This document shows, one piece after another, positions 9,263 through 58,158 of a stretch of 64,000 bases of DNA (position 1 is the stretch's first letter; the number at the start of each line of letters is the position of its first letter). The notes under the pieces are model-generated. The model ran no database searches. It worked only from the letters and a program-made list of their open reading frames with translations, and was not told where the DNA came from. Source of the DNA: a virus. The DNA is taken from positions 62,001-126,000 of the IMG/VR virus record IMGVR_UViG_3300018004_000004; one strand, given 5' to 3'. The position numbers and the translations under genes are program-made.

Positions 9263-9296
9263 GTTTAACTTAGTCAAGGTCGGAGGACCAAGTACT

Positions 9297-10194: not shown

Positions 10195-10196
10195 GT

Positions 10197-10271: not shown

Positions 10272-10272
10272 A

Positions 10273-10486: not shown

Positions 10487-10501
10487 TTTTGGAGCAACAC
10501 A

Positions 10502-11133: not shown

Positions 11134-11137
11134 TCTT

Positions 11138-38501: not shown

Positions 38502-38917
38502 TAGCTTGGGAAACTAGGATCAGCTGCTTGTAGATTGCTGACTGAGCTAGAGACAGTAGCAGCTGAGGACAAAAGACGAGGAGTATCGTTCACGAGGGTT
38601 GGCACCGGAACTGCAGCGCTCGACCCTATACTTGAAAGCTGGACTGGATTGAGAGTCCAATAACCGCAACCAAAGTGGATATTCTCCAATGACTCGGAGA
38701 ACGATGTCGGACCACTGATAGCGATACCGAAGATGTTGTCTACCAAGATGCCAAGGCCCAACTTACTGTACATGGCCGCAGACGCATCATCAATGAAGAC
38801 ATACGGCTGGCCAACCCAATCAGTACCAGCGTGTATAAGCTTAGGAACTTGCGTACCCGGCGGGGCAAACAAGGGTAGTTGTTGGTCATTCACGATCGCA
38901 TTGGCAGGAGTAGACAT
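38501..38917 (-). CDS. Baseplate-region protein, 138 aa
   Basis: ATG at 38917 overlaps the upstream stop. The 138 residues are Ser/Ala-rich at the C terminus (SSAATVSSSVSNLQAADPSFPS), with a central mixed region (VFIDDASAAMYSKLGLGILVDNIFGIAIS). No motif is recognised. It sits between the zinc-type protein and the W-like protein, so it may be a hub or spike accessory. Confidence 0.6.
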   Translation of the reverse strand: MSTPANAIVNDQQLPLFAPPGTQVPKLIHAGTDWVGQPYVFIDDASAAMYSKLGLGILVDNIFGIAISGPTSFSESLENIHFGCGYWTLNPVQLSSIGSSAAVPVPTLVNDTPRLLSSAATVSSSVSNLQAADPSFPS

Positions 38918-39612: not shown

Positions 39613-42600
39613 TTAGATAAGACCCATATTGCGAGCCTGGCGGAACGAGAACATAAGGGGCTCGATTTCGTCTTCCTTGAAATACTGCCACTTTGTCTGC
39701 AAAGTACCCAGAACATCATCCACCTTCCAGCCTTCTAGACCTGAAATCCAGGGTCTCTGGAAACGAGTAAGTGGAGCAATACCCATTGGATTGAGGCGGT
39801 TAACTATCTTACCGGTCCAGAAGATAGCTGCTCCGCCTGCTAGCGCGGCCGGCACAGCAATCCATGGACTGATAGCCGCGGCGCCAATCAAGGCAAGAAT
39901 GCCTAACTCCGCCTCAACCACAGGCAAGTTGGAGCTATTGATTAGAGGATTGTGTATCGTCCAGCCTTCAATCTGGGTTTCCATTCTGGTCAGCATATCC
40001 CACACAGCCTGGTGTATAGGCATGCTCAGCTTATCGTTGATCACGACAAACGCGCGCGGACGTACGATCGTAATGAAACCAGTCTCCTGATTGAATGAGT
40101 GGATCACACTATCAACTTCGACCGGGCCCGAGATGCCGGTGGAAGGATCCAGAAGCATCAGGACATCGAAAGGCTCGATCTCTGGGTTGCCAAGAAGTAC
40201 CAACTCACCACGATAAGCCTTAGCCAGTTCATCACGCAAAAAGCTCTGCATGTAGGCATTCGTATAAGGCGTATCGCCTTTGATGTTCTTCTTGTCCACA
40301 ATGAACGGATCAGCGAGCAACATACGACGATACTGCGAGGGTATCGCTTCATTGGCTGGTAACGTCTGATTCACCAAGCGGACTGTATTGTAAAAGTTCT
40401 CATTCAGATTGATACCGTTATGAATGATGTTATCACCATTCACTAAGTGCCAACGACGGACGGGCTTCATACGAGCATTCACAGCCAGATTAGCACCTGG
40501 TTGAGTCTGTTGATTTAGCCAGGTGTAGTAGTTCTGGACTAGTTGCTGAAGACCTTGTTCTCCCTGGAATGGAGAGATTGTTTTGCCAGGAGACGTGCCT
40601 ATAACCAGGCCAAGAGAAGAAACATTACTTGCCATCTGCTGCGCGAAGATGTTAGTGATGTTGAAGAAGACTCCAGGCCCACCACCATTGATGTAACCTA
40701 TCATCTTGTCAGCGGCCGCATTAGGACTTTGTAAAGTTGCACCTACAGTAGCTATAAAGAAAGTATAGAACTCTGAGCCTTCTGTGGCGCCATTCAGAGT
40801 ATATTCATATTGGTTCTCTGCACTAGAAGCCCATTGAGAACCAACACCGTTGCAGAAAGCCCTGAACTGAGCCTGTCCACTATTGGTACCACCTGTCCAC
40901 CAGAGATTAAACTGGATCGTATCTGAAGCCGCTTGCTGCTGCAACTCGACCTCGCCTGGGACTGGCGTACGCGAAGAATAGAAATCATGTGGATTAGCAA
41001 ACACAAGGGTAGCATCCGCAGTATATGGAAAACCATATTGCTTAACGGCGAGAATGAACTCAGGATAGCGACGAGCAATATCCTGGATATACGTCCAAGG
41101 AGTCATAATAGAATCCTTGGGGATGTAGTACTCTGGCGAACCGTAGCCGCCTGGCAGTTCATACCACCACGTACGAGCTCCACCCTTTGCATCAGCTATA
41201 GCTGTACCATCTGGTCCAAAGATGTGTGTTGTTAGGATATTCTCAAAGCTACGATCGTAGCCTGATTCTAATCCAGTTGCCCCAGCCGTCAGAGGTGAAC
41301 TGCTAGCCAGAATCAAAACCGAACCCAGCAGGGTGTTCCAGTTATGGCCCTTGATGTAGTGATCCGTCGGAGCGCCAAGCTGCCAACGACCAAAATGCTT
41401 AGCTGTGCTGACACTCAGCATGGCACTCATAACGTCAGCCACAGTCCCACCTGGAGAGTTAAGGCCAGGAATCTTGTAGCCTCCAACAGTACTGTTGCCT
41501 CCGAAGGCAGGTGTGTTACCGAAGATACCACCAAGCAAATCACCTGGGATACTAGGTATATTGCTAGGAAAATCACGAACACTCTTTACAAGAGCATTGG
41601 TCAGCTTGTTGATACGCCCATCAACCGTAAATCCATCCTTACGGATCTCATCTTGGGCCGGCACAACTAGCTCCAGCATGTAGCTCTGGCAGACGATCGA
41701 GAGGATCTCATCACCCTCGATTTGTGTTACCTGGCCGGTAAAGACAGGCACAAGCAAATCAGGATTATTCGAGAACCCCATGCGCACCTGTACCTTAGTA
41801 CCGGTCTGTAGAGCAAAATAACGAAGCGGGAACTTGTTATCGACCTGGCGATTCGATGTGGTAGTATCAACAGGACGATGGGCCGCGATCTGAGGGAATC
41901 GATTATCAAGAGTCCATGCATCAGCTGTGGGCTGATTGATATCCATACTAGCCACACCACCAGCAGGGATGACAAGCTGCTGATCGGCTGGTATGTTAGT
42001 TGTTACCGGCGCGTGCAGTCTTGCTTCCTGGCGGCCTTGCGGCGTACCGTCAAACATGTGTTGATCCAACATGTGCAGGAGATTGGAGACCTGAATGACC
42101 GCTGTGTCGGGTCTATCCCGATAGCGAATGATCTCCATATCAAGAACCGTAGCATACGAGTAGAAGTTATCGTAAGCGTAGAACGGTTTCTGCGCGTTGT
42201 CTTCCATCAGGAACAACTTGAATGTGGGGAATGCCTTGGACATCGTGTAGCTAGAAGGCTTAACATTTGAAATGATAGCCTGTGCATTACCCGTGAAGGA
42301 TGCTGTATTTGTATGAACCAGCTTCCCTGTATCGACATTAGGGGTTACTTGTTCGAAGTTTGTTACCGAAGTCATTGTCTGCGAAACAATGGAAGTGATC
42401 TGCTTCTGCATGCTGGCAATCAGGTCAGCATTGTCATCATGGAAGTACATGGCCGGATTGTTATCGCGGCCGACGTATGTAACATCTTTGAGACCCATAT
42501 CCAGATAGCACGAGTGTCCTGGGAGCTGAGCATTACCAGGTGTGGTAATCGTCTGTGTTGTCACAAACATAGGTTTCAGCTGTGGAGACGACTGCGCGCG

Positions 42601-45468
42601 TTGCATTTGGTCACGAATCAACTGATAGTTGTTAGCATAGGCAAAACCCACAAACTGATCCCATAGCTGATTGACCGGTGACTCTAAAGCAGGATCTGCA
42701 GCCAGAGCTGCAGAGACACGGGCATCAATATTCTTGGAGTAGGTTTGAAACAGCTGATAATCCGGCAGCTCGGATAGAGTTGGCCAGTTCTTAATCAGGA
42801 AATAGTCGGAATAGTTTAACTGACCACCATGACTCTTGATTCGATTCGCTATATCTGGGAAGTCTTCGGTGAAGGTATTATCTCTCAGACCTGTTAGGCT
42901 GCTTGGAAACTCATCTAGCAACTTAACCATCAGCAGTTGCTCCTGTTGCTCGAAAGGAGCAGGAGACAGCACATTGTAAGCTTCACTAGAGATAGGAGGA
43001 GGAGCCAGAAAATGCGTAAGCGCTTGCTGCACCGCTGTGCCTAATGCAACACCCCCAATAGCACCTGATACTGCACCTCCGGCTGGTGTTACAGTCGGTG
43101 ATTGCTGAGTTAACCAGTTCCACAAGAACTGATTAGCTTCTGCTCCAGTAGCAGTAGTCCCTGTCACTGAAGAAACAGCGGTCGATACTGTATTTGAGTA
43201 CGTCATCATCTTTGCCAAGTTCACCAAGGCAGTGAGCGATGTATCACCAGAGAAGTCATTGACGATCGTGCCGTCACGCAGGATCTTCAGCCAGATTTGA
43301 GAGAATCCAAAGGGTGTTGTATTCACCTGATATGGATTTGGACCCTCAGCATAATAGACGTTCTCATATTGAATGGCATTGTACTGGGCAGTTACTTCAC
43401 TTGCTGCTTCAGGTATAGTCTCAGTTGTCAGTTCCTTTGTCAACAAGCCGCGAATACCCAGCATGTTAAGGACTTGGTTCTGGACTGCTATCGATTGCAT
43501 ACGATGAATAGAGTTCACACGGCGCCACTCATTGCGCAGGCTCTGGAACTGATCTTCCAGCATCTTAGTCATATTGGATAGCAAGCTGAGTCCAGTATGT
43601 TCCGGTTCCGGATAACTATCAGCTTCTGGGATCTTGGCATTCGACAGCAACCCAACAGATACCAATGTAGACCCAGGACCCAAGTGCTGATAGGTAGGAT
43701 ATTGATATCCAGCCAATGGTATCTGAGAGATGTTATTGACGAACACAACGGAGATCTGCATCGGATAGATAAAGTGTTCTGGATCTATATCTTCGATATC
43801 CGAGCTGGCCGGCTGATCATCATTCTCCTTCGCTGTCATCTTGATGTAGTGTTCTTTGTATAGGAACGCAGCAGACTCAGTAGCATAATCATACGTATAG
43901 TTGTTGTTCAACAGATAGCGAATCTGCGTTGTCATCGGCGGTGGGGTTGTCGCAGTCGGTGGCGGGTTGGTTGAGTTAGAAATGTTTGGAGGTGTGTTTG
44001 TGTTATTACCGCTTACCACTGGAGTGGTATTCGTTGCCGGGTTAGGATTACCAGCAGGCGGTATTGTACCTTCCTGAGGAGTGAAAGCATTTGGATCATT
44101 CGATAGTGTGCGGTAAGTATTCGTAGCCTTCGTGAACCAAGTGTTATCCATACTTGGAGAACCTTGTCCATTATTCACGATGCCTTGTCCAAAACGATGT
44201 GCTTCCCAAGCCGACAGAGCAGAACCATTGTTAGCACGCAGCTTGAGAATAGCCCAACCTGTAGCCATGTCATTCTGAAGCTGGGCTTGTCCACCTGTGA
44301 TAGGCGGGCTCATCATCCAAGAGATATAGGTTGCCAATACAGGATCTGTTGACTGCGGACTTGGAACAGACTTAGAGCCCCAGTTGTATCCATTGTTGGT
44401 ACGAGCAGCAACTAGATAACCACTCTGCACAGCCACAGAAACATAGTGTGTGCCAAGATAAGTATCAGCTGCCTTCATAGCATCAATAGCAGCCGCGCGC
44501 ACCCACTGCAGAAGACCTACTGCAGCCGAAGGCTTGCCGGTATTGGTCACTGTAGACTTGTTGATCGCCGAATAGTTATTATTGGATTCCGGAAAGGCAG
44601 CAGACTTCACCCACCACTGAATAGCAGGATTATGGATATCAGTTGTGTCGATAATGATGTTATCTACGAAGTTTCCAGCGCTGGCTTTCCCCTGCGCAGC
44701 AGTACCTTGTCGAGTGGCTCCAGGATTGGCTGGATTGAGGGCTCCAGATCCGGCCGGCGGAGGATTGAGACCTGTATCGTTAGGCAGTGCACAAGCAGCA
44801 TACTCGCGCGCAGTAAACGTAATACTACCAGGTATTTGTCCCTGCCAGTTCGTGGAGGAGACAGTCATACCTGTATCAGGCTGTTGGGTAGGATCACTAT
44901 TCAGATTCGTCTGGATCCAGTTCAACAAGTAAGCTGTGAAAAGTGGCGAGTTCAGAGCACTGGAAGTAGAGTTGCCTGTCCAATCATCATACTGGAAGTT
45001 CTTGGAGTACGGACGATAGTTGAAGTACGACATCGTCATGGTAACTTGCAGTGTGTCAATCAAATCAGGATTAGTTTCCACACGCATCTGACGCAGAGCA
45101 AAAGCCATAACGTCATCTGCAGTAGCTCCTTGAGTTAGAACTGCAGGGTTCACGATCTGACGGATATGATCGTTCTCTACTTCAACGAAGGGAGCAGCCT
45201 TAAACATAGCCAGGAGCATCTGTACATCAGTCCATGCTGAGTAGTCGGCATTATCATAATCAGCAACGCACTTCCAAGTCCACGTTACATCCCAACGCGA
45301 CTGACCAGTCTTGATAGGAATAGCGAACGGGAAGCGCAGAGGCATAACCTCTTCTCCGTTGATAACCTTGTGGCACTGAATCTGTTCCGGAGGAATGTTC
45401 AGTACAAGGTTACCAATACGGAAGTATCCCGCTTGATTGTCATCTCGAGTTGTGATTATCTGTCCCAT
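39613..45468 (-). CDS. Giant baseplate hub with lysozyme-like insert, 1951 aa
   Basis: ATG at 45468 overlaps the upstream stop. The 1951-residue protein has, in order: an N-terminal tube-adaptor-like domain (residues 1-180); a lysozyme/SLT-like region near 285-410, with PESNNNYSAIN (candidate catalytic E294), SAAVGLLQW and ALSAWEAHRFGQG, like the E..G..Q and AYN.G motifs of soluble transglycosylases; Pro/Thr-rich linkers; a gp27-like hub domain near 1220-1265 (GTKVQVRMGFSN, PVFTGQVTQIEGDEILSIVCQSYMLEL); and a C-terminal hub domain near 1700-1810 (AYMQSFLRDELAKAYRGELVLLGNPEIEPFDVLML). It is likely a fused central hub that opens the cell wall. Far longer than T4 gp27 (391 aa). Confidence 0.78.
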   Translation of the reverse strand: MGQIITTRDDNQAGYFRIGNLVLNIPPEQIQCHKVINGEEVMPLRFPFAIPIKTGQSRWDVTWTWKCVADYDNADYSAWTDVQMLLAMFKAAPFVEVENDHIRQIVNPAVLTQGATADDVMAFALRQMRVETNPDLIDTLQVTMTMSYFNYRPYSKNFQYDDWTGNSTSSALNSPLFTAYLLNWIQTNLNSDPTQQPDTGMTVSSTNWQGQIPGSITFTAREYAACALPNDTGLNPPPAGSGALNPANPGATRQGTAAQGKASAGNFVDNIIIDTTDIHNPAIQWWVKSAAFPESNNNYSAINKSTVTNTGKPSAAVGLLQWVRAAAIDAMKAADTYLGTHYVSVAVQSGYLVAARTNNGYNWGSKSVPSPQSTDPVLATYISWMMSPPITGGQAQLQNDMATGWAILKLRANNGSALSAWEAHRFGQGIVNNGQGSPSMDNTWFTKATNTYRTLSNDPNAFTPQEGTIPPAGNPNPATNTTPVVSGNNTNTPPNISNSTNPPPTATTPPPMTTQIRYLLNNNYTYDYATESAAFLYKEHYIKMTAKENDDQPASSDIEDIDPEHFIYPMQISVVFVNNISQIPLAGYQYPTYQHLGPGSTLVSVGLLSNAKIPEADSYPEPEHTGLSLLSNMTKMLEDQFQSLRNEWRRVNSIHRMQSIAVQNQVLNMLGIRGLLTKELTTETIPEAASEVTAQYNAIQYENVYYAEGPNPYQVNTTPFGFSQIWLKILRDGTIVNDFSGDTSLTALVNLAKMMTYSNTVSTAVSSVTGTTATGAEANQFLWNWLTQQSPTVTPAGGAVSGAIGGVALGTAVQQALTHFLAPPPISSEAYNVLSPAPFEQQEQLLMVKLLDEFPSSLTGLRDNTFTEDFPDIANRIKSHGGQLNYSDYFLIKNWPTLSELPDYQLFQTYSKNIDARVSAALAADPALESPVNQLWDQFVGFAYANNYQLIRDQMQRAQSSPQLKPMFVTTQTITTPGNAQLPGHSCYLDMGLKDVTYVGRDNNPAMYFHDDNADLIASMQKQITSIVSQTMTSVTNFEQVTPNVDTGKLVHTNTASFTGNAQAIISNVKPSSYTMSKAFPTFKLFLMEDNAQKPFYAYDNFYSYATVLDMEIIRYRDRPDTAVIQVSNLLHMLDQHMFDGTPQGRQEARLHAPVTTNIPADQQLVIPAGGVASMDINQPTADAWTLDNRFPQIAAHRPVDTTTSNRQVDNKFPLRYFALQTGTKVQVRMGFSNNPDLLVPVFTGQVTQIEGDEILSIVCQSYMLELVVPAQDEIRKDGFTVDGRINKLTNALVKSVRDFPSNIPSIPGDLLGGIFGNTPAFGGNSTVGGYKIPGLNSPGGTVADVMSAMLSVSTAKHFGRWQLGAPTDHYIKGHNWNTLLGSVLILASSSPLTAGATGLESGYDRSFENILTTHIFGPDGTAIADAKGGARTWWYELPGGYGSPEYYIPKDSIMTPWTYIQDIARRYPEFILAVKQYGFPYTADATLVFANPHDFYSSRTPVPGEVELQQQAASDTIQFNLWWTGGTNSGQAQFRAFCNGVGSQWASSAENQYEYTLNGATEGSEFYTFFIATVGATLQSPNAAADKMIGYINGGGPGVFFNITNIFAQQMASNVSSLGLVIGTSPGKTISPFQGEQGLQQLVQNYYTWLNQQTQPGANLAVNARMKPVRRWHLVNGDNIIHNGINLNENFYNTVRLVNQTLPANEAIPSQYRRMLLADPFIVDKKNIKGDTPYTNAYMQSFLRDELAKAYRGELVLLGNPEIEPFDVLMLLDPSTGISGPVEVDSVIHSFNQETGFITIVRPRAFVVINDKLSMPIHQAVWDMLTRMETQIEGWTIHNPLINSSNLPVVEAELGILALIGAAAISPWIAVPAALAGGAAIFWTGKIVNRLNPMGIAPLTRFQRPWISGLEGWKVDDVLGTLQTKWQYFKEDEIEPLMFSFRQARNMGLI

Positions 45469-48400
45469 TAGGATTCCAGTTGTTCTCGAATCGTCTCACG
45501 ACGGCGGAGAGTACTCATCTTGTTTCTCCATCCGTTGCGATAGTTCACATTGATATTTGATACACCATTATTGCCAGAGATCTGACTAATCATACGTTGC
45601 ATTTCAATCGTATCCTGGCGATTCTGAGCCTTCATTCTTACTTCCAGATCTGTACGCTGGCGCATTGGCGCCACGATCGTTGTAGATGTACCACCGCGCA
45701 GAGGAAGCTGACGACGAGGTGGGTTAACAGAAGACATAGCACCGGTTATTGGCTCGCCCGGGACCTGATCTGTTACAGTCTCAGTAGTTTCTGGTCTGAA
45801 GTTCCCACGCGGCCGACCGAAAGTAGCCTGCGTCGGAGTAACCTTCTTGACATGGCTGGTAAGAACTGCTCCTACAGCCGCGGCTCCGACTCCAATAGCC
45901 AGAACACCTAGGTTACCTTTGGACTCTCTGTAAGTACTCTTGAGACCCTCATTGATGGCGCCGAGGACTTTGGAAACAGACATCCCCGAGCCTTTCTCGC
46001 GCGCCAGGCCAATCAGCCAAGGAGGAGGCGTACCCATCTCCTTGTACAAGGCCTGCAGACGATAGAGGGAATCACCCTCCATATCCGTAGTTGCCTTAGT
46101 CAGAAGTTCGGCAGCACGATCTGCCCTAACATTACGCCCTATGATAAACTCGGAGAGTGTTCCTTGGAACTTCTCGGAGTCCAGCACGTCCATCAAAACA
46201 TTCCGCTTGGTGCCGGGAGCTACCCTCATCCCAGTAAGCTCTTCAAACAAAGGAGCGGTCTCTGCAGTAATGATCGATTCCTTACCGTAGCCAGAGATAA
46301 CTTCCCTCATACCCTCGGTGAACTTAGCTACACCTTCCGGCGTGCGAGATTCCAAGCCACCTACCAATCTTCTGTACAATCCCAGAGGATCCTCAGGATT
46401 CAACTTCATCTTGCCCTTCTGGGCAGAGATAGGTACCTGACGGATCGTCCACAGCATGTGACCGAGGATATCTCTTTCCATCGGCTTCACACCGATTGTA
46501 GGATGCATCTCGACGTTCATGTACAAGCGAGTCAGTAAGTTAGAGTACGCACCAACCACACCACCAGCCATACGCTGTGTGACTTGTTCTGCTCTTCCAC
46601 CTGCACTAGCCAACTTAAGACTTTCTTCAAGCATAGAAGGCAGAGTCTTCACACCAGCTTCTGCGATGTTACGTGAGTCTTCAACGCTCCCGTACAGCAT
46701 CTCAAGAGTCTTCAGGCTTCTCCACTGGTTGCTATTCAGAGCATTGATAGCAGCCTGGGCTTCACGTTCGGCTTGAGAACCCTTGCGATAGAAGAACAGA
46801 TTCAGGATATCCTTATCGTCATCGGCGCCGAACAAGCCACGGATGCGCTCATCCATACCGACCATGTTAGGACCCATGCCAGCATCAGGAGCCACCTTCA
46901 CACGCATGTAAGGAGCTGACTGAATAGGGTGACGAGCAGCCGTAGCGTAGATATCTTCTCCGGCGAGTAATGCTTTACGGATCTCTGGGTCGCGGACTCG
47001 GCCGGCCATCTGCTCATTGATAAGGAGTTCAAATGGGTTTTCCTGGGCGCGCGTCTGAATGAAACCAGACACAGCTCCCAAGACATCTGTACCACGGGCA
47101 CGGTAGAATCCTTCCTTCCCGAACAGTACACGCTGGGCTTCATCAAGGTGAGCGGAGATCGCCGCGGACATCATAACGGGATCCTTCTGCCACTTGACTA
47201 CGTCCGCCAGCGTCTTTTCATAATCCGTGGGGCTATAAGTAAGACCCTCACCAACCTTTTCATAGAGGTTGCTACCACCGCCGTGTGCCAACTTACCAAG
47301 GACAGGAATGTGAGTAACTTCAAGGTCACGTCCAGCCACACGTGCGTACACCGGCTGATCAAGTTTGATAGAAAAGTTCTCTTGGACGAGCTTATTTGAG
47401 GGATCAAAGATACCTCCAACTCGGCCTTCCATCGTGCCTATTCTGAGATTGGCTGCAGCCTCCTCTATGGGGATAACAGTCCCCAGAGACTTGGTGAAGT
47501 CACCACCTACGAACTGGGCAGCAAAAGCAGAAGCTCTTCCCGGATCGCCACCATGGAAATCCAAGCGGCTCATCAACTCCTTCATACCTTCCACATTACC
47601 AGCTCTCCACATCTCGGAGAACATATCGTATGTGGCGCCGACCATCTGAGGTACATTACGGCGAGTGCTATCCCAGAACGCCGCAAAGGAGAACATGGCG
47701 TTCTTCTGCATGTAGTTCATCAGACTTTCTTCACCGCTACGTCTGAAGGCAGAGAAGAGCTCACCCTCGGTCCCAGGAGCACCACGCTGAGCAAAGCCAG
47801 CAACATCACGCAGGTAGTCTTCTGTAAGTTGACCCACCGACTGCATACGGAGTCGACGGCCCTCCAGATCCAGGCTGCGTACGTATTCCGAATCTTCGAG
47901 CAGATGGAAGACGTTATTTCCAGTACCAGTACGCTGCGCGCGAATACCCTGAGCAGCAAGATCAGCCATGTACTTATTGACACGATCCAATGCTTCCAGG
48001 TTTGCCCAGTCAGCCTTTAGATGCACACTGTTAGCAGCAATATCGCTAGACACAGCAGCTGCTTGCGATACCATAAGGCGGAAAGGATCGCTAGTCTTAG
48101 CTTGCATGTAGTGTAGCGGAGCTAGAGCTTCCACAAAGCTAGGGATAGCAGTCTTAGATCCAGTAGCTTCACCGTATAGATTCAGCAGCTCGACCTGGCG
48201 ACGGAAGATGTCTTCCTCGGGTACGATAGCCAGACCCTTCACGCCAGCGATGTCAATCTTGGCTCCTGTCTCTACTGGATACTCTTGACGCAGCTTGAGC
48301 TCGAACTGGCCGCTAGGTGTAGTGGACCAGCCTTCTATGAATGTAGAAGGAGCTTCCGACGTGACAGGATTCAAACCCTCAAATCCGATTAGTGTCTCTG

Positions 48401-50237
48401 GGCTAAGGGACTTTTTGATGTAATCCTCGGGGTTGAGATGAAGCTTGTCGACGTAGACGTTCTTACGCGACTCCATCTTCAGCCGGCGGAACTTCTCGTG
48501 AAGGATAATATCACCTTCACCCAACCCACCCAAGCCACGGCCGGCTTCTAGATAGCCCTTCTCGCCGAGCTTACCACTGATCTTACCCCAAGCAGCCTCT
48601 GCCTGGGCGCGTGTCATCTTTGGATTGTCGGCCAGTATGCGTTGGATAGCAGTCTCTTTATAGCCAGCCAATCCTTCTGCTGTTTTCGGCAAGTCGCCGA
48701 ACAGCGACTTCTGTTGTGGCGACACACCAGCCACGGACATCTGTATTTCCGGAACACCTCCGATGGATTCAACCGCGGAAGTTGTAAAGCTTGGACGGAA
48801 CTCCTCACCAATGGTCTCAGCTTTCAGCTGCAAGTCCTTGGTGAAGGATCTATAGAAATACGTTTGCTTAGCGAGCGAAGGCGCACCTCCCGGGATGTAG
48901 AGTTCCGATTCAGCGAACTCGAACACACCTTTCGATGTGCCTCCCTCAGAACCAATGCGAGTCATACCACGACCCAGCATCTTGATAGTGTACTGGATCC
49001 GTTCCAGGTCTGACAGATCCTCAAATGCCTTGCCTCCATAAATAGGCAAGCTGCTAGGAATAGCAGCGCGAGAACGGATATACAGAGCTTGTGGAGAAAG
49101 GTTAGCAAGCTGGGATTCAAGACGTGTTTGAAGCTTGAATGGATCTTCGGGGACCACGCCGCCGAAATAAGCAGCACGACCAATATCACCTTTCAGCTTT
49201 CCCCAATCCTGAGTCAGGTGTTCAGCAACGAATGTATCCAGTTCGAATACTCGTTCTGGCGTGTGAATGTGGCGCCCGACTCCAACCTTGCCTTCAATGT
49301 TGACGGATCCTGTCTTGGGATCAAACAGAGGGATATGAAGCTCGCCCTTTGGACCCTTGATGTTGACACCCAGCATACGGCCGACAGTTCCATCTGCCAC
49401 CTGCTCGGCAACGACCGTAGCAGAGGACACCTGTCCCTGACGGATCGCGCGCTGAATAGCATCAGCTACTTCTGGACGCTGACCGTGCAACTGACCATAA
49501 GCTTCCAGCCACTCCATACTAGTAGTCTTACCAGTCATGCTCATCTTGAGTGGATTGGCAAACGGACCGAGATCCTTGAGCTTCTTGGCCCAGCCAAGAC
49601 GGCTACTCAGCTCCTTGACGAAGCGGGGATCAGCTCTATTGGCGTTGACGATACCACGGAGCTCTGACTCTGCCATGCCGGCCAGAGGACCTCCGCGCGC
49701 AACTCTAGTAAGATCTAGCGGAGAAGCTACCCGCTGTCTGGCGCCTTCCACAGCATAGGTAAGCAGATCACGCTTGTTAGACATGCCCAGAAGCTCATGA
49801 AAGAGGTTCTCCGCCTGCTCCATGCTCTTCTCGATCGGTGGCCCACCGCGGTCAACCTGGCTGAAGAAATCTACGGCCGCATTGTCGGCCCAGGTACGGA
49901 AGATGGGATTGAGAGCTCCTGCACCCCCACCTGTCTTTTCCAGAGCTGAACGTAAGTCCTTGAATCTAGTAGCTTTATTGCTACCAAAAAACATAGGCAT
50001 CTCACGTGCGAACTGCATGCCAGCTCGAGCTGTACGGGAGGCAGATGTTACCAAGCCCGGGCCGGCAAGACCCATAGCCGCTACAATAGGGGTAGTTATG
50101 ACGGCAGTCCGGAAGTAACCGCGGTTCTCATCCTTAAGGAAAATAGGGGCCGTAGCCGAGGCAAAGGCAGTGGCAAAGGCCACACCTGGATGTTCAGTTG
50201 CAAGGCTTTTAACGGCTTTTAGGAACCCGGTAAACAT
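45468..50237 (-). CDS. Giant tail/ejection protein with RNAP-like DxDxD signature, 1589 aa
   Basis: ATG at 50237; the stop overlaps the hub start. Hydrophobic segments lie near the N terminus (residues about 18-70, VAFATAFASATAPIF, AVITTPIVAAMGLAG) and C terminus (LGVLAIGVGAAAVGAVL, about 1455-1475). Residues 1100-1165 resemble the active-site region of double-psi beta-barrel RNA polymerase beta' subunits: RHP at 1102-1104, GADDDKD with D1139, D1141, D1143, and AEREA ending at 1160. In E. coli beta' the RxP is at 425, D460/462/464, and EA at 479-480, so spacings are 37 versus 35 and 17 versus 16. VGAYSN and ISAQKGK follow, comparable with motifs of single-chain polymerases. A virion RNA polymerase or ejected protein is proposed; tape measure is the alternative. 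Confidence 0.6.
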   Translation of the reverse strand: MFTGFLKAVKSLATEHPGVAFATAFASATAPIFLKDENRGYFRTAVITTPIVAAMGLAGPGLVTSASRTARAGMQFAREMPMFFGSNKATRFKDLRSALEKTGGGAGALNPIFRTWADNAAVDFFSQVDRGGPPIEKSMEQAENLFHELLGMSNKRDLLTYAVEGARQRVASPLDLTRVARGGPLAGMAESELRGIVNANRADPRFVKELSSRLGWAKKLKDLGPFANPLKMSMTGKTTSMEWLEAYGQLHGQRPEVADAIQRAIRQGQVSSATVVAEQVADGTVGRMLGVNIKGPKGELHIPLFDPKTGSVNIEGKVGVGRHIHTPERVFELDTFVAEHLTQDWGKLKGDIGRAAYFGGVVPEDPFKLQTRLESQLANLSPQALYIRSRAAIPSSLPIYGGKAFEDLSDLERIQYTIKMLGRGMTRIGSEGGTSKGVFEFAESELYIPGGAPSLAKQTYFYRSFTKDLQLKAETIGEEFRPSFTTSAVESIGGVPEIQMSVAGVSPQQKSLFGDLPKTAEGLAGYKETAIQRILADNPKMTRAQAEAAWGKISGKLGEKGYLEAGRGLGGLGEGDIILHEKFRRLKMESRKNVYVDKLHLNPEDYIKKSLSPETLIGFEGLNPVTSEAPSTFIEGWSTTPSGQFELKLRQEYPVETGAKIDIAGVKGLAIVPEEDIFRRQVELLNLYGEATGSKTAIPSFVEALAPLHYMQAKTSDPFRLMVSQAAAVSSDIAANSVHLKADWANLEALDRVNKYMADLAAQGIRAQRTGTGNNVFHLLEDSEYVRSLDLEGRRLRMQSVGQLTEDYLRDVAGFAQRGAPGTEGELFSAFRRSGEESLMNYMQKNAMFSFAAFWDSTRRNVPQMVGATYDMFSEMWRAGNVEGMKELMSRLDFHGGDPGRASAFAAQFVGGDFTKSLGTVIPIEEAAANLRIGTMEGRVGGIFDPSNKLVQENFSIKLDQPVYARVAGRDLEVTHIPVLGKLAHGGGSNLYEKVGEGLTYSPTDYEKTLADVVKWQKDPVMMSAAISAHLDEAQRVLFGKEGFYRARGTDVLGAVSGFIQTRAQENPFELLINEQMAGRVRDPEIRKALLAGEDIYATAARHPIQSAPYMRVKVAPDAGMGPNMVGMDERIRGLFGADDDKDILNLFFYRKGSQAEREAQAAINALNSNQWRSLKTLEMLYGSVEDSRNIAEAGVKTLPSMLEESLKLASAGGRAEQVTQRMAGGVVGAYSNLLTRLYMNVEMHPTIGVKPMERDILGHMLWTIRQVPISAQKGKMKLNPEDPLGLYRRLVGGLESRTPEGVAKFTEGMREVISGYGKESIITAETAPLFEELTGMRVAPGTKRNVLMDVLDSEKFQGTLSEFIIGRNVRADRAAELLTKATTDMEGDSLYRLQALYKEMGTPPPWLIGLAREKGSGMSVSKVLGAINEGLKSTYRESKGNLGVLAIGVGAAAVGAVLTSHVKKVTPTQATFGRPRGNFRPETTETVTDQVPGEPITGAMSSVNPPRRQLPLRGGTSTTIVAPMRQRTDLEVRMKAQNRQDTIEMQRMISQISGNNGVSNINVNYRNGWRNKMSTLRRRETIREQLES

Positions 50238-50274
50238 ATTCGGCTTATCTCACTGATTTAATGGCTCTAATCGA

Positions 50275-50306
50275 CTCCTAGGGCCCTTTACGGGGCATTC
50301 TAGGAG
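50275..50306 (-). other. Intergenic hairpin between the two giant genes
   Basis: CTCCTAG (50275-50281) and CTAGGAG (50300-50306) form a 7-bp stem with inner GGGCC/GGCCC-type pairing. No U-tract follows on the minus strand. It may set relative expression of the two giant proteins or stabilise mRNA ends. Confidence 0.4.
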
Positions 50307-50307
50307 C

Positions 50308-53300
50308 TTAGCTGGTGCTCTCTTCCCGGTACTCGTCCTCATTCCGGCGAATATCCCGCATAACCTCTTTGTCTCCCTGTTCGTCGACGCTTATAGACAC
50401 GTTGGAGCCTGCCACTCGGTTAGGACCGCCCGAGGAGACCACTTGCGGATTCTTATCTTGTCCCTCGAGGATAATACGCTCCACAGTTTGTCGTATGCGT
50501 TCTGTAGGTTGTGAACCGCTAGAAACAAGTTCTCGCACAGCTCCATCGATGTAGGGCTTGCGCCAGAGGAGGGCTGCCCGGTCGTCGTAGATGTTGAAGT
50601 CGTGGTAATCATAGCCTTCGTTCTGAATAATCTTAAGCTTGACATCCTCATAGTCAATGCCTTGCTCCCATAGCGGAGAACCAGGACCGGGGATATCAAA
50701 GCCGAGCTTGCCAAAGGTTTCGGCGATTTGCTTCGAACGGATGTAGTCTGCGTAGCTGAGGTCTGTTTTCGCTTGCTCATACTCTTTGAGGCCTTCCTCT
50801 GTGTAGAGGACTCCGCCTTCTTCAATGGCTGGTATTATCTTGCCCGCGAGGCGAGCAAGCATAGCATCAGTTTTTACCCACTGAGCAGTAAGGGCTCGGG
50901 CTAGTTCCGGAGAGACAGATTCAAGAATCTGCTGGCGCTTGTCCGGATCTGTTTCTTGGAGGAATGCTGGGAAGTAAAGCTTCTCGCGCCGAGGGAGGGT
51001 TTGAGAGACAAACTGAGGATTGCCAAAGAGATTGGCACCAATATTCGTTCTCTTACCCTGACTAGTATACCTGCCTTTCTGGCCTGGATGCGCTCCTGCC
51101 TGCACATCTGCACGCAGATATTCCAACTCATCGACCAAGCTATCCATTAGACGGCGATGTTCGACTTCTTCCGGCACCAATACACCGCCAGTGAAACGAC
51201 GGTAGGTACCGCGGGCCCATGCAGCAATCATATCATGGAACGGCTTCTGCCATCTACGCATGCGCGCGCCGTAGACTTCCTGTTCCTGATAGAGAGACAA
51301 AGCTGTGCGCTCATTCCAGTACTTTGTGTGGAATGGAGTTGGTACGAAGCGGAGAGGTCCACCCTCACCTGTGAAGGCCAGAGTCTCGGCGTACTTACCG
51401 AGAGCTACCTGGGTGGAGGAATACATGGCCTGAGCTTCTGCCCCGCCGTAATCCTTTCTGAACTGTCCGAGACCTCGATCGATGATTTCTTTGTTGATAT
51501 TAACATCATCAATGAAGATGACAGCACGAGACTCAGCCGCATGCTCTTCAGTACCCTTAGGCACAACAAGAGTAGCCTGCATGCCAACCTGGCTAGACAA
51601 GTAATCATCCAGAGAAGCTTGTTTCTCCGTAACGGCCTTAGCACTCTGAGAGCGAGTAAGTTCATTCTCCTCGCCGAGTGTTGTAGCTGAGAGATCGGAA
51701 GCAGACATACCAAGAGAACTGAATATGAACTTGCGTCCTGGATACTGCTCCAGCTCAATACCTTCTGGTGTAGCCTTGGTGATCGTTCCTTGGATCTGTT
51801 CGATCGAAGCAGTGAAACGACGCTGACCGAACTGGATCGTCGATTCCTTCATCTGGCGCACTTGATCTTCAGTGCGTGCAAACTCGATCTCCAGACGAGC
51901 ATCTCTCTGTGCGGCCGCGCGCACCTTGGAGCGATAGATCATGTACTCCTTACTCCAAGGAGCAACATCAGCCAGAATCTTGTAACGATAGATGTCTGGG
52001 TATTCTTCTGCCTTCAAGCCACGAAGCTCTGGATGCAGAGCAGCATAACCACGGCCTGGAAGACGAGCACCACCTTCCGGTATCTTGGCGAACGGATCGC
52101 CAGTACGGAAGTTGATCATGTAATCTTCGCCAGGCAGCCAACGAGGCATTGTATTCGGGATCTCATTAGCTTGCGGAGCTAGCTTATCAGGCTGAATGAA
52201 ACGGCGGAGAGGTTCTGAATAACCGAACGGCATGCCACCAGTTCCGCTAGGGTTGAAGCCAGACACAGCACCCAACTCACGCTGGTAGTACTGACGGGAC
52301 AGATTCGTCATTTGACGACTGCCCTGCAATACAACATCTTGACCCGGTGTTCCGGCGCCAGGAGTTCCAGCCTTACCATAAAGGGTTGTAGCTATGAACC
52401 CAGGCAGACCTGTATATTCAGCAAAGGCCAGCGCTTCACGACCGACAACATCCTTGAAGCCAAACTCCTCACGAGGCCGAGATGGCGCCAGGCCACCCAA
52501 CGCCATGTTAGGTTCTAGACGCGGGCTATACAACGTATAGTTGTTGATGTCCCATTCGCCTTGGTGCATTCTCTGTGTTGGCTTTACGATGCGGCCGACT
52601 GTGGCAGCCAGCAGCGGACCAATGAGAGGCACGTTGGAGAAAGCAGGAGATGTGATTGGGTATGGACGGCTAGCGTAGTTCGCGCGTTCCAGCCAGTATG
52701 GATCCTTTATGTACTTGAACGGATGCAGCAGTGGGTGATGTTCCCAGTATGCATCTTCCGAACCATAGGTCGATACCATCTCGGCCTTGGTCTTCATCAA
52801 CTGATACCAGTGCGGACGGAAGTACTTGATGCGACCGCCACTGAACGGAGTGGAACCTACATCCCACCAACGGCCGGCGCGGATTGGAACTTCTTCTTCA
52901 CCAGAGTAGATGCGTTGCAGCTCATCTTCAGTCTTACGGCTGCCCAACATACCAGGCACGAAAGGCAGAGCCAGCAAAGCACCGATACCTGCACCCTTCC
53001 AGAAGGCCTTGTGAGAAGCAGCTACTCGAGCAGCGTGGACTGGGAACTCTTGGGCGCCACGAGCAATGTTGACCCAGTGAATACCTGCACCAATAGCACC
53101 AGCTCCGATAGGCAGAGCTAACGGACCATACTGCGGACCTGGTACGATCTCTTCGTACTTATCTGTGATCGCACGGAGGCCTGGGATTGCGTCGGTTGCG
53201 CGCGCCCAGGCAAGATGAGCCTTAAGCGGAACCTCGGCGAGCGTCTCAGCTGGTTTATTTCCCAGCTGGTAGTTGATGTAACGTGCGGCCGTGATAGCAA

Positions 53301-55233
53301 GATATGCAGGCAGCACACGCTTGAGCATCAGCGCATTGAGCATTCCGCCTTCGCCGGCGAACGGAATGTGGAACAGTTTGTTGTATGAGCCCTTAGGCAG
53401 ACCCATACCGATATCAGACAACAGACGGAGTGGGCGCTCAGCAGCTTCGAATGCTACACGTTGACCTGTTCTGTAGGCCGATTCGATACCACCCACGAGT
53501 CCAGGCTGACGACCGTAGAGAGGTTCGAAGAACTGGAACTCTCCACCAATCTGTCTCTTGAAAGCCTGTCCCTTTGTGAGGGGAGTTCCTGGTCTCTGGC
53601 TGGCGCGGAGATTCTGGAACATCTCCCACATCTCAGCAAGAGGACCTTTGTCAGTCAGTGTACGAGGGAATACCTGTTCGCGGAGCTTGGCGCCAAAGGC
53701 AGCCGATGATCCTGTCAGCCGGCCGCGTTCGGCAAAGCGAATAGCTTCACCGCGGCCGCCAACCAAACTCAGATACGGAGAGGAAGCTGAGGTTCGAGTG
53801 AACCTCATTCCTGTCTTAGCAAAGCGTTCATCCAGGGCGCTGACACCAATCAGGCGCTCGATGTGCTTACCCATCTCGGTAAGCTCAGAACCGCGTATCA
53901 GTTGTTCGGCCGCAAAGGAAACTTCCTCTGGCAGATAACTGGACATGCGCTGAGACAGACCGAAGGTACGGAAGAGGCCGCCAGGCGAACGCGCTTCTAC
54001 CGTCTTCATGAACTGATAGACGCCCTCAGCATAGCCAGACCAGTTCTTAAGAGCAAACTTATGTGCTCCTACAACTGCGGCGCCACCAGCCAACCAGGCA
54101 GCTACCTTCAGAGTATTGCGATCGTCCTGTCCATCCCAACCGGATCCAAAATCAGTCAAGGCATGACGGCTCTCAGCAGCCAGACCTGTACCACTCAAAC
54201 CGGTGATCTGAGTCTGACGATCGCTTCTCTTGCTGCTTGCGATAGCCCACGCTGCGGTTGCCGCGGCAGCAAAGACCAGGGCAACAGAGATACCCTTTCC
54301 TATGGCACTGACTTTGTTAGGCAGGACCTTGGCACCACGCTCAGCCTGAGCAGCTACCTTCTCAGCCCAGGGGCTGGCATAGATCTTGGAGAAGAACGTC
54401 TCGGCAGTCTCACCTGGGGGCAAGAGTTGTGCAGAGCCCAGAGCTTCTTCCCAACTGTGCCCACGCTGTAGGTTTCTCTTGGCTGTGCGCAGGCGCTCAA
54501 AGAGGGTCTGCTCGACCTTGACGTCAGTCACAGCCTCATGATAGCCGGCAGCTCCAGCCAGCTTGGGACCCATGAGTCTTTCAAGTCCGCCGGCCGCACC
54601 AGCAATATTCTCAACCTTCCAGCCAGGAACCCACTGCATCTCCTCTACGTTACGCGCCAGCATACCTGGGCCGGTAGTCTTGGAGATAGGAGTGGATGGG
54701 CCCATGCGCAGGTGACGTTCTGCGAAAGCTGGGTTGTCTTGTCCGTAACCCAGCGCCAGTTCAAAGAATGACTGCTCCAAGCCGAATACCTTTACTCCCT
54801 TGCGCTTGAAGAAGTCCTTGTATCCAGCGAGGCTGGGATAACGGCCGGCGATCTCAGTGAGCACACCAGTATCGTACTTGACATTCCAGCCAGTCAGTAG
54901 GAAACGCTTCTTACGAGAGAGTTCTTCTTCGGCCGAGGCAAAGAAGCGTCGAGCTGCTTCTTCTTCACCGACCTGACCAAGCTTCATAGCCTGAGAAAGA
55001 ACTTGCTCGCCTTTCGCATAGTTGTACGCAAACGGGATATGAATCCCGCTCACAGGATCGGTATATCCAGTGCGAGGCTTTACTAATGTGGTGGGATGAA
55101 ACGGGGATGCTACGTAAGGAGGGAGTTTTGAAGCGAAGATCTGGAGCAGGCCTGTGTTCTTATGTCCAGCGGACAGGCCTGTAGTCTCGACGTCGAGAAC
55201 ATGAAAGAAATGCTTTTGATGCCAGGTTGCCAT
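50308..55233 (-). CDS. Giant tail protein with DEDDh exonuclease and SNase-like domains, 1641 aa
   Basis: ATG at 55233, six bases after the Fe-S carrier gene; ribosome binding site weak. Residues 9-245 form a DnaQ/RNase T-type exonuclease: VLDVETTGL (D14, E16), GWNVKYDTGVL (N117, D121) and GYHEAVTD (H232, D237), so all five DEDDh catalytic residues are present. Hydrophobic segments near 310-330, 375-392, 715-735 and 760-778 suggest membrane insertion. Around residues 1135-1280, ending SRAVIFIDDVNINKEIIDRGLGQF, the sequence resembles the end of a staphylococcal-nuclease (SNase) domain. The place after the tail-assembly genes is that of the tape measure. It may line the tail tube and act on nucleic acid during ejection. 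Domain calls are motif-based. Confidence 0.75.
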   Translation of the reverse strand: MATWHQKHFFHVLDVETTGLSAGHKNTGLLQIFASKLPPYVASPFHPTTLVKPRTGYTDPVSGIHIPFAYNYAKGEQVLSQAMKLGQVGEEEAARRFFASAEEELSRKKRFLLTGWNVKYDTGVLTEIAGRYPSLAGYKDFFKRKGVKVFGLEQSFFELALGYGQDNPAFAERHLRMGPSTPISKTTGPGMLARNVEEMQWVPGWKVENIAGAAGGLERLMGPKLAGAAGYHEAVTDVKVEQTLFERLRTAKRNLQRGHSWEEALGSAQLLPPGETAETFFSKIYASPWAEKVAAQAERGAKVLPNKVSAIGKGISVALVFAAAATAAWAIASSKRSDRQTQITGLSGTGLAAESRHALTDFGSGWDGQDDRNTLKVAAWLAGGAAVVGAHKFALKNWSGYAEGVYQFMKTVEARSPGGLFRTFGLSQRMSSYLPEEVSFAAEQLIRGSELTEMGKHIERLIGVSALDERFAKTGMRFTRTSASSPYLSLVGGRGEAIRFAERGRLTGSSAAFGAKLREQVFPRTLTDKGPLAEMWEMFQNLRASQRPGTPLTKGQAFKRQIGGEFQFFEPLYGRQPGLVGGIESAYRTGQRVAFEAAERPLRLLSDIGMGLPKGSYNKLFHIPFAGEGGMLNALMLKRVLPAYLAITAARYINYQLGNKPAETLAEVPLKAHLAWARATDAIPGLRAITDKYEEIVPGPQYGPLALPIGAGAIGAGIHWVNIARGAQEFPVHAARVAASHKAFWKGAGIGALLALPFVPGMLGSRKTEDELQRIYSGEEEVPIRAGRWWDVGSTPFSGGRIKYFRPHWYQLMKTKAEMVSTYGSEDAYWEHHPLLHPFKYIKDPYWLERANYASRPYPITSPAFSNVPLIGPLLAATVGRIVKPTQRMHQGEWDINNYTLYSPRLEPNMALGGLAPSRPREEFGFKDVVGREALAFAEYTGLPGFIATTLYGKAGTPGAGTPGQDVVLQGSRQMTNLSRQYYQRELGAVSGFNPSGTGGMPFGYSEPLRRFIQPDKLAPQANEIPNTMPRWLPGEDYMINFRTGDPFAKIPEGGARLPGRGYAALHPELRGLKAEEYPDIYRYKILADVAPWSKEYMIYRSKVRAAAQRDARLEIEFARTEDQVRQMKESTIQFGQRRFTASIEQIQGTITKATPEGIELEQYPGRKFIFSSLGMSASDLSATTLGEENELTRSQSAKAVTEKQASLDDYLSSQVGMQATLVVPKGTEEHAAESRAVIFIDDVNINKEIIDRGLGQFRKDYGGAEAQAMYSSTQVALGKYAETLAFTGEGGPLRFVPTPFHTKYWNERTALSLYQEQEVYGARMRRWQKPFHDMIAAWARGTYRRFTGGVLVPEEVEHRRLMDSLVDELEYLRADVQAGAHPGQKGRYTSQGKRTNIGANLFGNPQFVSQTLPRREKLYFPAFLQETDPDKRQQILESVSPELARALTAQWVKTDAMLARLAGKIIPAIEEGGVLYTEEGLKEYEQAKTDLSYADYIRSKQIAETFGKLGFDIPGPGSPLWEQGIDYEDVKLKIIQNEGYDYHDFNIYDDRAALLWRKPYIDGAVRELVSSGSQPTERIRQTVERIILEGQDKNPQVVSSGGPNRVAGSNVSISVDEQGDKEVMRDIRRNEDEYREESTS

Positions 55234-55238
55234 GCATA

Positions 55239-55559
55239 TTACACACTGAAGCTCTTACCACAGCCACACTGGCTGCGCACATGTGGATTAGTAAACCTAA
55301 ATCCAGATGCGTCTAGGCCTTCGATGTAGTCTACAGATACATCCTCAAGATACATCAAGCTCATTGGGTCCACGACTACTTTCACGGGACCAAACTCAAA
55401 CAGTTCCCAGTCCGGCTCGTATTCATCAACGAGACCGATAGAGTATTCGAATCCGGAGCAGCCGCCACCTTTCACACCAAGGCGGACGAACGGCCGATCT
55501 GGGTTATCTTTGAGGACGCTGACGAGCTTGTCCTGGGCGGCGATTGAAAGCTGGATCAT
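55239..55559 (-). CDS. A-type Fe-S cluster carrier (IscA/ErpA/HesB family)
   Basis: ATG at 55559 follows GGAGAGAAGGA, a strong ribosome binding site inside the end of the upstream gene. The 106-residue product matches A-type carriers: MIQLSIAAQDKL, GVKGGGCSGFEYSIGLVDE with C34, then VVVDPMSLMYLEDVSVDYIEG and NPHVRSQCGCGKSF with C98 and C100. The C-x63-C-x-C spacing is the family's cluster-binding triad. These proteins hand [2Fe-2S]/[4Fe-4S] clusters or iron to target proteins in the cytoplasm. Length 106 is normal for the family. It lies between the tail-assembly genes and the giant tail proteins, all in one direction, suggesting a virion or virion-assembly client. Confidence 0.93.
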   Translation of the reverse strand: MIQLSIAAQDKLVSVLKDNPDRPFVRLGVKGGGCSGFEYSIGLVDEYEPDWELFEFGPVKVVVDPMSLMYLEDVSVDYIEGLDASGFRFTNPHVRSQCGCGKSFSV

Positions 55560-56742: not shown

Positions 56743-56824
56743 AGACTCGCTTGACCTCTCTGTACATTCCGCGGGCCACTACAATAACCGCCACAACGCA
56801 GAATATGATGTTACCCCAATGCAT
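56702..56824 (-). CDS. Small membrane protein, 40 aa
   Basis: ATG at 56824 shares a base with the stop of the 444-aa gene (TAATG), the same junction used across this operon. The 40 residues contain one TM (NIIFCVVAVIVVARGM) and a basic tail (YREVKRVYGNHGRC). It could be a holin-like or assembly membrane peptide. The call rests on the coupling and clear TM. Confidence 0.55.
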   Translation of the reverse strand: MHWGNIIFCVVAVIVVARGMYREVKRVYGNHGRCDTEEGQ

Positions 56825-58158
56825 TATCTGAGTCTCCGCGCGATGAACCCATAGGAATCCAGAATGGTCTGGCCATCCTGGGCCATCACTTGATCATTCG
56901 AAATCAGCTTGCACTTCTCCAGGTAGCGAATACGCTTCACTCCTGTAATCTCATTACCCAGCTCGATACGGATGTCAAACAGAACATCCTGGTAGACAGC
57001 ATTGTCGAACCCAATCACACTAGAGAACGTAGTATTCTGCTGCGTGATGTTGGTTGCCAGTGTCTGCATCTGCTCCGGAGTCAGGCCAGCTCGTAGAGTG
57101 TTGATTTGAATCTGCAGATTGGCAGCCTGCTTGGCCGACCCTGTATCGTTCGGGTTGTTGTTTGCCTGCTGATTAAGATTATCACGAGCAGCCATGAGTC
57201 CCAAAATACGTGTGATGGTTGCTGCAGCCGGGCTATTCACCAAAGCCTGGGTGTTTTGGGTGTTCTGGATGAATCTCTGGTACTCCTGCATGACGGTATA
57301 TAGATAGCCTTCCGTCACGAAGTTGATAGTGAACTGACCTTGAACCAGGGATCTACCCTGGGCGTAGGCATCCACATAGCGGCTGGCATAGCCATAGATA
57401 GGAACCGCGTTATCCTGGAGAGCGTACTGGACGGAGTTCAACTCATCGATGAAGATATTCCCAATATACATGCGCGCGCCGGTGACCGTGAAGTACTTAT
57501 CATACTCCGAGTTGGGATAGGTATACTCAGACGGCGCCGGAGGAACAGTGGAGGTACTGCTTACGATGCTGGAAGGCGAAGATGTACTCTGGGAAGAGTC
57601 AGTCGGGTTACCGGTCTGTTGACCGTTATTGGCATCAGCCAGCTGAACCAAGGTAATCACATACGGATCAGTCTGGGTGGTAACTACCAGAGACTGACTG
57701 TAGGGCGAATAGCCTTGTAGCGTGGCGGCAAGGGTGTATGTACCAAGCGGAATGGGATTCAGAGTGGTAGAGGTACCTGAGTTGTCGGTTACACCATTGT
57801 CGGTGGCCGGCCCTGAAATGCCCCACGCAATACCAGGCACGGCAGGCTTGAATGAGAGAGTGATATTGGTCGTCGGCTGGGCACTAGGCGACAACGAAAC
57901 CTGTACCGACTGAGAGACTGTTGTGTTAACTGAAAGCAGCTGGCTAAGAGCTTGATATCCAGTAGCCTTTACCTGCATCTGAGCCTGGATAGGATTCAAC
58001 AATACTCGGAACGATACACGCCCATTCGAATCAGTCACCACCGAGAACTGTGTTGGATCGAAGTTCGCCGATCCATTGATAAACACCTGTGCCCCAGAGA
58101 TAGGAGCATTAGTTGCCCCATCGATAACGGTTAGTACTATTGGGCTGTAAGTAGCCAT
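56824..58158 (-). CDS. Tube-fold protein with two N-terminal Ig/CarboxypepD-like domains, 444 aa
   Basis: ATG at 58158 overlaps the upstream stop. Residues 8-95 and 100-190 are carboxypeptidase-regulatory/Ig-like sandwiches (VTDSNGRVSFRVLLNP; PLGTYTLAATLQGYSPY). A Ser/Thr-rich linker (about 190-215) leads to a domain around 225-310 with GARMYIGNIFIDELNSVQYALQ, VPIYGYASRYVDAYAQGRSLVQGQFTIN and GYLYTVMQEY, which lines up with the tube proteins at 58158 and 59229 (REK.P.Y..G...P.a..rg.r...G...). It is probably a third tail-tube homologue, perhaps a tube end or decorated tube protein. Confidence 0.72.
   Translation of the reverse strand: MATYSPIVLTVIDGATNAPISGAQVFINGSANFDPTQFSVVTDSNGRVSFRVLLNPIQAQMQVKATGYQALSQLLSVNTTVSQSVQVSLSPSAQPTTNITLSFKPAVPGIAWGISGPATDNGVTDNSGTSTTLNPIPLGTYTLAATLQGYSPYSQSLVVTTQTDPYVITLVQLADANNGQQTGNPTDSSQSTSSPSSIVSSTSTVPPAPSEYTYPNSEYDKYFTVTGARMYIGNIFIDELNSVQYALQDNAVPIYGYASRYVDAYAQGRSLVQGQFTINFVTEGYLYTVMQEYQRFIQNTQNTQALVNSPAAATITRILGLMAARDNLNQQANNNPNDTGSAKQAANLQIQINTLRAGLTPEQMQTLATNITQQNTTFSSVIGFDNAVYQDVLFDIRIELGNEITGVKRIRYLEKCKLISNDQVMAQDGQTILDSYGFIARRLR

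Follow-up and report, generated by a model that had tools for sequence, protein, structure and literature searches.

A cysteine-free pair of giant tail proteins with a predicted two-barrel RNA polymerase and a predicted DnaQ-like exonuclease domain in a contractile-tail operon

The window analysed here is a stretch of 64,000 nucleotides (nt), positions 62001-126000 of the 215-kb virus record IMGVR_UViG_3300018004_000004. Its minus strand carries a tail operon in the order sheath, tube, chaperonin pair, a giant protein of 1641 residues, a second giant of 1589 residues and the baseplate hub (Table 1). This is a canonical contractile-tail operon of the ME3/0305phi8-36 type, and the presence of the sheath gene indicates a contractile tail. 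An earlier note, made from the letters of the DNA, had drawn together four consecutive genes of this region, encoding an A-type Fe-S carrier, a nuclease-type protein of 1641 residues, an RNA polymerase (RNAP)-like protein of 1589 residues and a hub with a lysozyme-like insert. All four open reading frames (ORFs) were found at their coordinates and in this order on the minus strand. Their junctions are tight, with a 56-nt overlap upstream of the Fe-S carrier followed by junctions of 5, 70 and 1 nt. The tape-measure position, after the chaperonin pair and before the hub, is filled by the pair of giants; the 1589-residue protein is thus encoded among tail genes, between the chaperonin and 1641-type genes on one side and the hub on the other. 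An Rfam scan of the block gave no match, and a promoter scan of the block gave hits at chance level only.

Relatives were fetched by searching with the aligned conserved residues (about 742-1120 and 1514-1551) of the 1641-type protein, yielding 35 IMG/VR loci and three genome loci. These residues are kept in ME3 and MTATph1 and partly in KLEB27-3. The same gene order is found in Acinetobacter phage ME3, Moorella phage MTATph1 and Bacillus phage KLEB27-3, and ME3 has sequences homologous to both the 1641-type protein and the hub. In most fetched loci the gene next to the 1641-type gene encodes a protein of 1463-2440 residues, and the two giants adjoin each other wherever both are visible.

The 1589-residue protein contains a candidate metal-binding triad, DDDKD, at residues 1139-1143 (Asp1139, Asp1141 and Asp1143). 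An R-x-P motif (RHP, residues 1102-1104, with Arg1102 and Pro1104) lies 37 residues upstream of the triad, a spacing of the cellular type. Many partner proteins, such as KLEB27-3 gp34 with DYDGD, show the canonical DxDGD, and others, including those of the window (DDDKD) and ME3 (DHDQD), retain the three aspartates. Among the full-length neighbours of 1641-type proteins, 21 of 24 have a DxDxD located 380-570 residues before the C-terminus, compared with 0.5-6.5% of shuffles; as evidence of co-occurrence, four of these 24 partners are not independent, having been found via the polymerase. The distance from R-x-P to the triad is 37-51 residues in the families of the window, ME3, L023, L046-L050, KLEB27-3 and L047. 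R-x-P is also invariant in family F2 (L020-L022, L025, L027, L063-L068), where it lies 111-150 residues upstream of the triad because of an insertion. Across the families, whose alignments mostly show 11-25% identity, the sole invariant columns are the proline of R-x-P and the three aspartates. The protein has hydrophobic segments near residues 45-63 and 1443-1461.

Profiles of the catalytic segment were searched against 177,635 distinct PDB sequences. A six-sequence profile of the RxP...DxDxD segment of family F6 (KLEB27-3 gp34, IMG/VR locus L047 and phage-plasmids of Bacillus, Paenibacillus and Cytobacillus) gave 16 matches, all of them to RNA polymerase largest subunits and all at the catalytic site, with a best E-value of 2e-4. 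Two-barrel RNA polymerases made up 9 of the 11 matches of a ten-sequence profile including the window, and RNA polymerases 6 of the 7 matches of a thirteen-sequence profile built without it. The non-virion enzymes of phiKZ and AR9 were among the best matches of the catalytic-segment profiles. When neither the window nor L026 was included, the thirteen-sequence profile ranked the 1589-residue protein first among the 970 ORFs of its own genome (E-value 0.007). The score of the protein against the leave-window-out profile was 12.7 bits over residues 1074-1157, compared with a maximum of 2.8 bits in 300 shuffles. In addition, KLEB27-3 gp34 gave a sub-threshold match to Pfam Rpb1_2 at the catalytic site (E-value 0.015). 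Comparison of the window protein with its L026 counterpart revealed 85% identity at residues 1101-1160 against 53% overall, making the catalytic segment the most conserved part between the two. A match of the window segment to the designed barrel 7dww (E-value 7e-4) was set aside, as two identical half-repeats inflate its E-value. The RNAP-like character proposed in the earlier note is therefore supported by profiles, though single-protein searches of Pfam, PHROGs and NCBIfam identify neither giant. We predict that the 1589-residue protein is a distant two-barrel RNA polymerase.

A candidate lysine motif (K660/K667-G) in the same protein resembles the GDK...NKG of the cellular RNAP beta subunit. 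It is kept in L026, and a similar motif occurs in most F2 relatives; in the other families it was not generally recognisable. The motif had also seemed common to L046, but L048 and L050 lack it, leaving the assignment tentative.

At the N-terminus of the 1641-residue protein, the five DEDDh residues Asp14, Glu16, Asp121, His232 and Asp237 occur in ordered motifs. The HEAVTD motif of this protein corresponds to HEALTD of MTATph1 gp27, which is a recognisable exonuclease (phrog_192, 5e-11; Pfam RNase_T, 5e-5, above the cut-off). Searches with the N-terminus of the window protein gave no Pfam, PHROG or PDB match supporting a nuclease. In seven F6 relatives, an exonuclease is fused N-terminally to the polymerase in a single polypeptide, with Asp96, Glu98, Asp270, His351, Asp356, RYP1893-1895 and Asp1933/1935/1937 (KLEB27-3 numbering) invariant in all seven. 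These fusions, together with the DEDDh residues of the 1641-residue protein, indicate that exonuclease and polymerase travel together in these lineages, but in either giant gene. The ordered motifs support the prediction of a DnaQ-like DEDDh 3'-5' exonuclease domain, so the nuclease assignment of the earlier note is supported for the N-terminus. A staphylococcal-nuclease-like region in the C-terminal part, suspected by eye and from the hub nuclease of BtI1, was not confirmed. The 1641-type protein of L026 has no N-terminal exonuclease. It carries a PD-(D/E)XK restriction-endonuclease-type insert (L026:7613-11857; MTES_1575, 1e-18), and from this insert and the missing exonuclease, nuclease domains appear to swap in the 1641-type tail protein.

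Both giants are devoid of cysteine. The window pair has no cysteine in 3230 residues, compared with six in the hub and seven in the sheath. In 28 lineages, not counting the L040 and L049 fragments or the degraded genome loci, cysteine is absent from all 46,715 residues of the 1641-type proteins and occurs once among the 38,997 residues of the 1589-type proteins; this single cysteine belongs to L051, a member without DxDxD. The cysteine content is 0.54% in the smaller neighbouring genes and 0.23% in the hub fragments. Similarly, the N4-type virion RNAP has no cysteine, a feature attributed to its necessary passage through the tail (PMC3915230). Gp96 of P23-45 contains no cysteine in 5002 residues, and its R-x-P lies 38 residues before DFDGD, compared with 37 in the window. 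The lack of cysteine thus suggests tail delivery and is the strongest indirect evidence for it. As the earlier note proposed, a set of predicted nucleic-acid enzymes is encoded in the contractile-tail module; it occupies the tape-measure position and shows the zero-cysteine signature of known tail-ejected RNAPs.

Table 1. Features of the tail operon, with positions in the window
Feature	Position	Strand	Basis
Tail sheath	60018..62483	-	Homology to ME3 tail sheath, 9e-9
Tail tube protein	56824..58158	-	Homology to KLEB27-3 tail tube protein, 6e-13
First tail chaperonin-type gene, 159 residues	56074..56553	-	Position
Second tail chaperonin-type gene, 188 residues	55504..56070	-	Position; two-gene arrangement as in 0305phi8-36; annotated chaperonins in L070 and L075
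A-type Fe-S carrier (IscA/ErpA type)	55239..55559	-	Pfam; C34/C98/C100
1641-residue tail protein, zero cysteines	50308..55233	-	Conserved residues about 742-1120 and 1514-1551
Predicted DnaQ-like DEDDh 3'-5' exonuclease domain, residues 1-253 of the 1641-residue protein	54475..55233	-	Ordered motifs matched to relatives
1589-residue two-barrel RNA polymerase-like protein, tape-measure slot, zero cysteines	45468..50237	-	Profiles; position of 0305phi8-36 orf146
Putative catalytic segment, residues 1102-1143 of the 1589-residue protein	46809..46934	-	Leave-window-out profile; identity peak with L026
Candidate beta-type barrel lysine motif, residues 658-668 of the 1589-residue protein (GAK-IDIAGV-KG)	48234..48266	-	Kept in L026; tentative
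1951-residue baseplate hub	39613..45468	-	Homology to ME3 gp37 baseplate hub and KLEB27-3 gp35; phrog_20474, 5e-37
219-residue protein with four cysteines (35, 38, 56, 140)	38917..39576	-	Sequence
Baseplate J-like wedge protein	36890..38092	-	Pfam, 7.9e-23

The Fe-S carrier, as the earlier note had recognised, is genuine, with a match to Pfam Fe-S_biosyn (3.8e-18) and all three ligand cysteines, C34, C98 and C100 (C...CxC), and it is an accessory of one lineage outside the conserved module. Of the fetched relatives, L007 alone shares it with the window record (also L005, L006 and L017); in L026 and the others, no carrier gene adjoins the giant pair. As the giants have no cysteine, the carrier cannot serve them through cysteine ligands. 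The 219-residue protein encoded directly after the hub has a CxxC motif and two more cysteines, in a tail block that is otherwise poor in cysteine. Judged from its sequence, it is possibly an Fe-S or zinc tail protein. By analogy with some tail-tip proteins, in which Fe-S clusters occur, it would be a likelier client of the carrier than the giants. The hub assignment is confirmed by homology to ME3, whereas the lysozyme-like insert proposed within it has no Pfam or NCBIfam match. Co-occurrence of the four genes in relatives, suggested in the earlier note as a check, was found for the adjacent giant pair and not for the lineage-specific carrier. The conserved unit is the giant pair with the polymerase, often with the exonuclease, and its borders include neither the carrier nor the lysozyme.

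Several relatives show further arrangements of the module. Plasmid records of 200-240 kb from Bacillus, Cytobacillus and Paenibacillus (L070-L075), which are probably phage-plasmids, carry the same tail module. The polymerase-slot gene of MTATph1 (L003:18513-25869) is apparently fragmented, with a transposase gene in between; gp27 retains the exonuclease portion and gp31 the C-terminal end, and the DxDxD is gone. In KLEB27-3 (gp31-gp33, L004:12827-19980), an intron-like insert with a small ORF (gp32) splits the 1641-type gene at a conserved NxMPxW site. In the L032-L044 lineage, the partner encoded after a 2200-residue protein has 1571-1587 residues and no DxDxD, and in several members it is divided between two ORFs. 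Broken-frame remnants of the 1641-type gene were found on contigs of Acidobacteria metagenome-assembled genomes (L052, L053 and L054), with the conserved block 65-68% identical to that of the window, hinting at an Acidobacteriota host. Elsewhere in the window, positions 1610-11483 contain 25 tRNA genes, almost all of them plus-stranded, together with a gene for a tmRNA (tag peptide AEFEELPLAA).

Based on the gene order, the catalytic signature and the absence of cysteine, we propose that the giants are both tail-tube cargo and assembly parts, the 1589-residue protein being a virion RNAP and the 1641-residue protein carrying the exonuclease, and that both are ejected first. We give this explanation as a whole a probability of about two in three. 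Made without cysteine, the giants could be packed into the virion and threaded through tail and envelope without disulphides. They would fill the tail tube, exit first on contraction and help to form or occupy the entry channel. Either of them might serve as the tape measure. As the DNA follows, the polymerase would transcribe the first genes, as proposed for P23-45 (PMC10770324), and the exonuclease might act jointly with it by trimming RNA or DNA 3' ends at its side. No YonO-like or Rpb1-like polymerase was found elsewhere in the genome of the window, so that later genes probably depend on the host enzyme. A wider proposal is more tentative, and we place it somewhat short of an even chance: in an old and large lineage of contractile-tailed phages and phage-plasmids, a two-barrel RNAP would be the tape measure or its twin. 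The cysteine-free enzyme would be delivered along with a 3'-5' exonuclease, and a single tail-borne machine would thereby handle genome entry, first transcription and the trimming of 3' ends.

Several observations weigh against the delivered polymerase. The 1589-residue protein has no direct sequence match to a known RNAP, and the link runs via its relatives. The AlphaFold2 model of a 1200-residue core of a relative (nine-sequence alignment) had a mean predicted local distance difference test score (pLDDT) of 52, and a Foldseek search with it returned noise; for window residues 930-1340 (11 sequences) the mean was 44, and the fold was not confirmed. The glycine of DxDGD is replaced by lysine in the window, and loss of activity is therefore possible. 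The full-length relatives L037, L042 and L051 are without DxDxD, indicating that the polymerase is not essential to the architecture. Moreover, tape measures in general may be depleted of cysteine.

It is conceivable, though unlikely, that the 1589-type protein is a tape measure whose polymerase domain has lost catalysis and persists as a relic with a structural role. The 0305phi8-36 orf146 product at the same position was given the tape-measure role from tail length, the glycine of DxDGD has been lost in several families as well as the whole motif in the three members above, and the 1589-type protein diverges faster than its 1641-type neighbour. However, invariance of only the three aspartates and the R-x-P proline across very divergent families is unexpected of a relic, and between the window and L026 it is the catalytic segment that is best conserved. 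Slightly less probable still is that the giants are active enzymes that act late, in the producing cell or during tail assembly, and are not ejected. Their location in a structural operon would agree with this, but the complete lack of cysteine resembles that of ejected polymerases, and the 0305phi8-36 genes at the equivalent positions have been described as structure genes and the KLEB27-3 counterparts annotated as structural proteins. That the 1589-residue protein is an ordinary tape measure with a coincidental DxDxD and R-x-P is improbable. By chance, about 1% of shuffled versions of this protein have a DxDxD at the corresponding C-terminal location, and the protein is not picked up by any family library, but the motif recurs in 21 of 24 relatives, all PDB matches of the F6 profile are polymerases, and the leave-window-out match falls at the same site. 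We largely discount a single functional unit of four genes in which the Fe-S carrier matures a metal cluster in a giant tail enzyme: the carrier adjoins the giants and overlaps the chaperonin gene, and the window and L007 have the carrier as well as the exonuclease N-terminus, whereas L026 has neither, but the giants are without any cysteine, no other fetched relative that retains the giants has the carrier, and the four-cysteine protein after the hub is a more plausible client.

The delivered polymerase remains our preferred explanation. A tape-measure-fused virion polymerase was previously known from one group of Thermus siphophages, and the same idea would now extend to contractile-tailed phages and phage-plasmids, among them those of Bacillus, Acinetobacter and many uncultured viruses, in several of them paired with an exonuclease. 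In the literature covered, which did not include subscription journals, no description of a tail-delivered RNAP in contractile-tailed phages of this group was found. The proposal offers a function for giant genes annotated as 'hypothetical' or 'tape measure', and the absence of cysteine is suggested as a simple marker of tail-delivered proteins. If the wider proposal holds, the 'tape measure' gene of the 0305phi8-36 group would be a virion polymerase. The start of transcription during entry of contractile phages becomes testable, with KLEB27-3, MTATph1, ME3 and the Bacillus phage-plasmids as named material.

The closest known system is gp96 of Thermus phage P23-45, a proven virion RNA polymerase fused to the tape measure (PMC10770324), rather than the crAss-like and N4 polymerases with which the earlier note had compared the block. 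P23-45 has a two-barrel polymerase in the tape-measure gene of a tail operon, as is predicted for the window, and the giants of both lack cysteine and have nearly equal R-x-P spacing. However, its tail is long and non-contractile, and gp96 is one polypeptide with the polymerase at the N-terminus and no exonuclease described, whereas the window combines a contractile tail with two giants encoded by separate genes, the second of which has its catalytic motif in the C-terminal third. The gene layout is that of 0305phi8-36, the founding member of the group, and of ME3 (Metrivirus), with sheath, tube, two chaperonin genes, two giants and hub (PMC2147016, PMC5000817). 0305phi8-36 has a tail chaperonin divided between two genes; its orf146, which precedes the hub orf147 and whose position is occupied by the 1589-residue gene in the window, was assigned as the tape measure (PMC2147016). 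The giants of these two phages are annotated only as structural, hypothetical or tape-measure proteins, and the polymerase reported for 0305phi8-36 is another gene, the YonO-like orf99, of which no homologue was found in the genome of the window. N4 and the Schitoviridae have a giant cysteine-free polymerase that is carried in the particle and ejected (PMC3915230, PMC12633501), as is proposed for the window; the N4 enzyme has a T7-like single-subunit fold unrelated to two-barrel enzymes and belongs to a short-tailed phage, and is thus an analogue and not a relative. Among crAss-like phages (phi14:2 gp66; crAss001 gp47/49/50), a two-barrel virion polymerase is found among giant cargo proteins, some of them stored in the tail (PMC10172136), but these phages are short-tailed, with another gene context and no exonuclease in the tape-measure protein. 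The contractile jumbo phages phiKZ and AR9 also have two-barrel polymerases, one set of which is in the virion; these RNAPs differ in being multisubunit and in not being encoded as a tape-measure gene.

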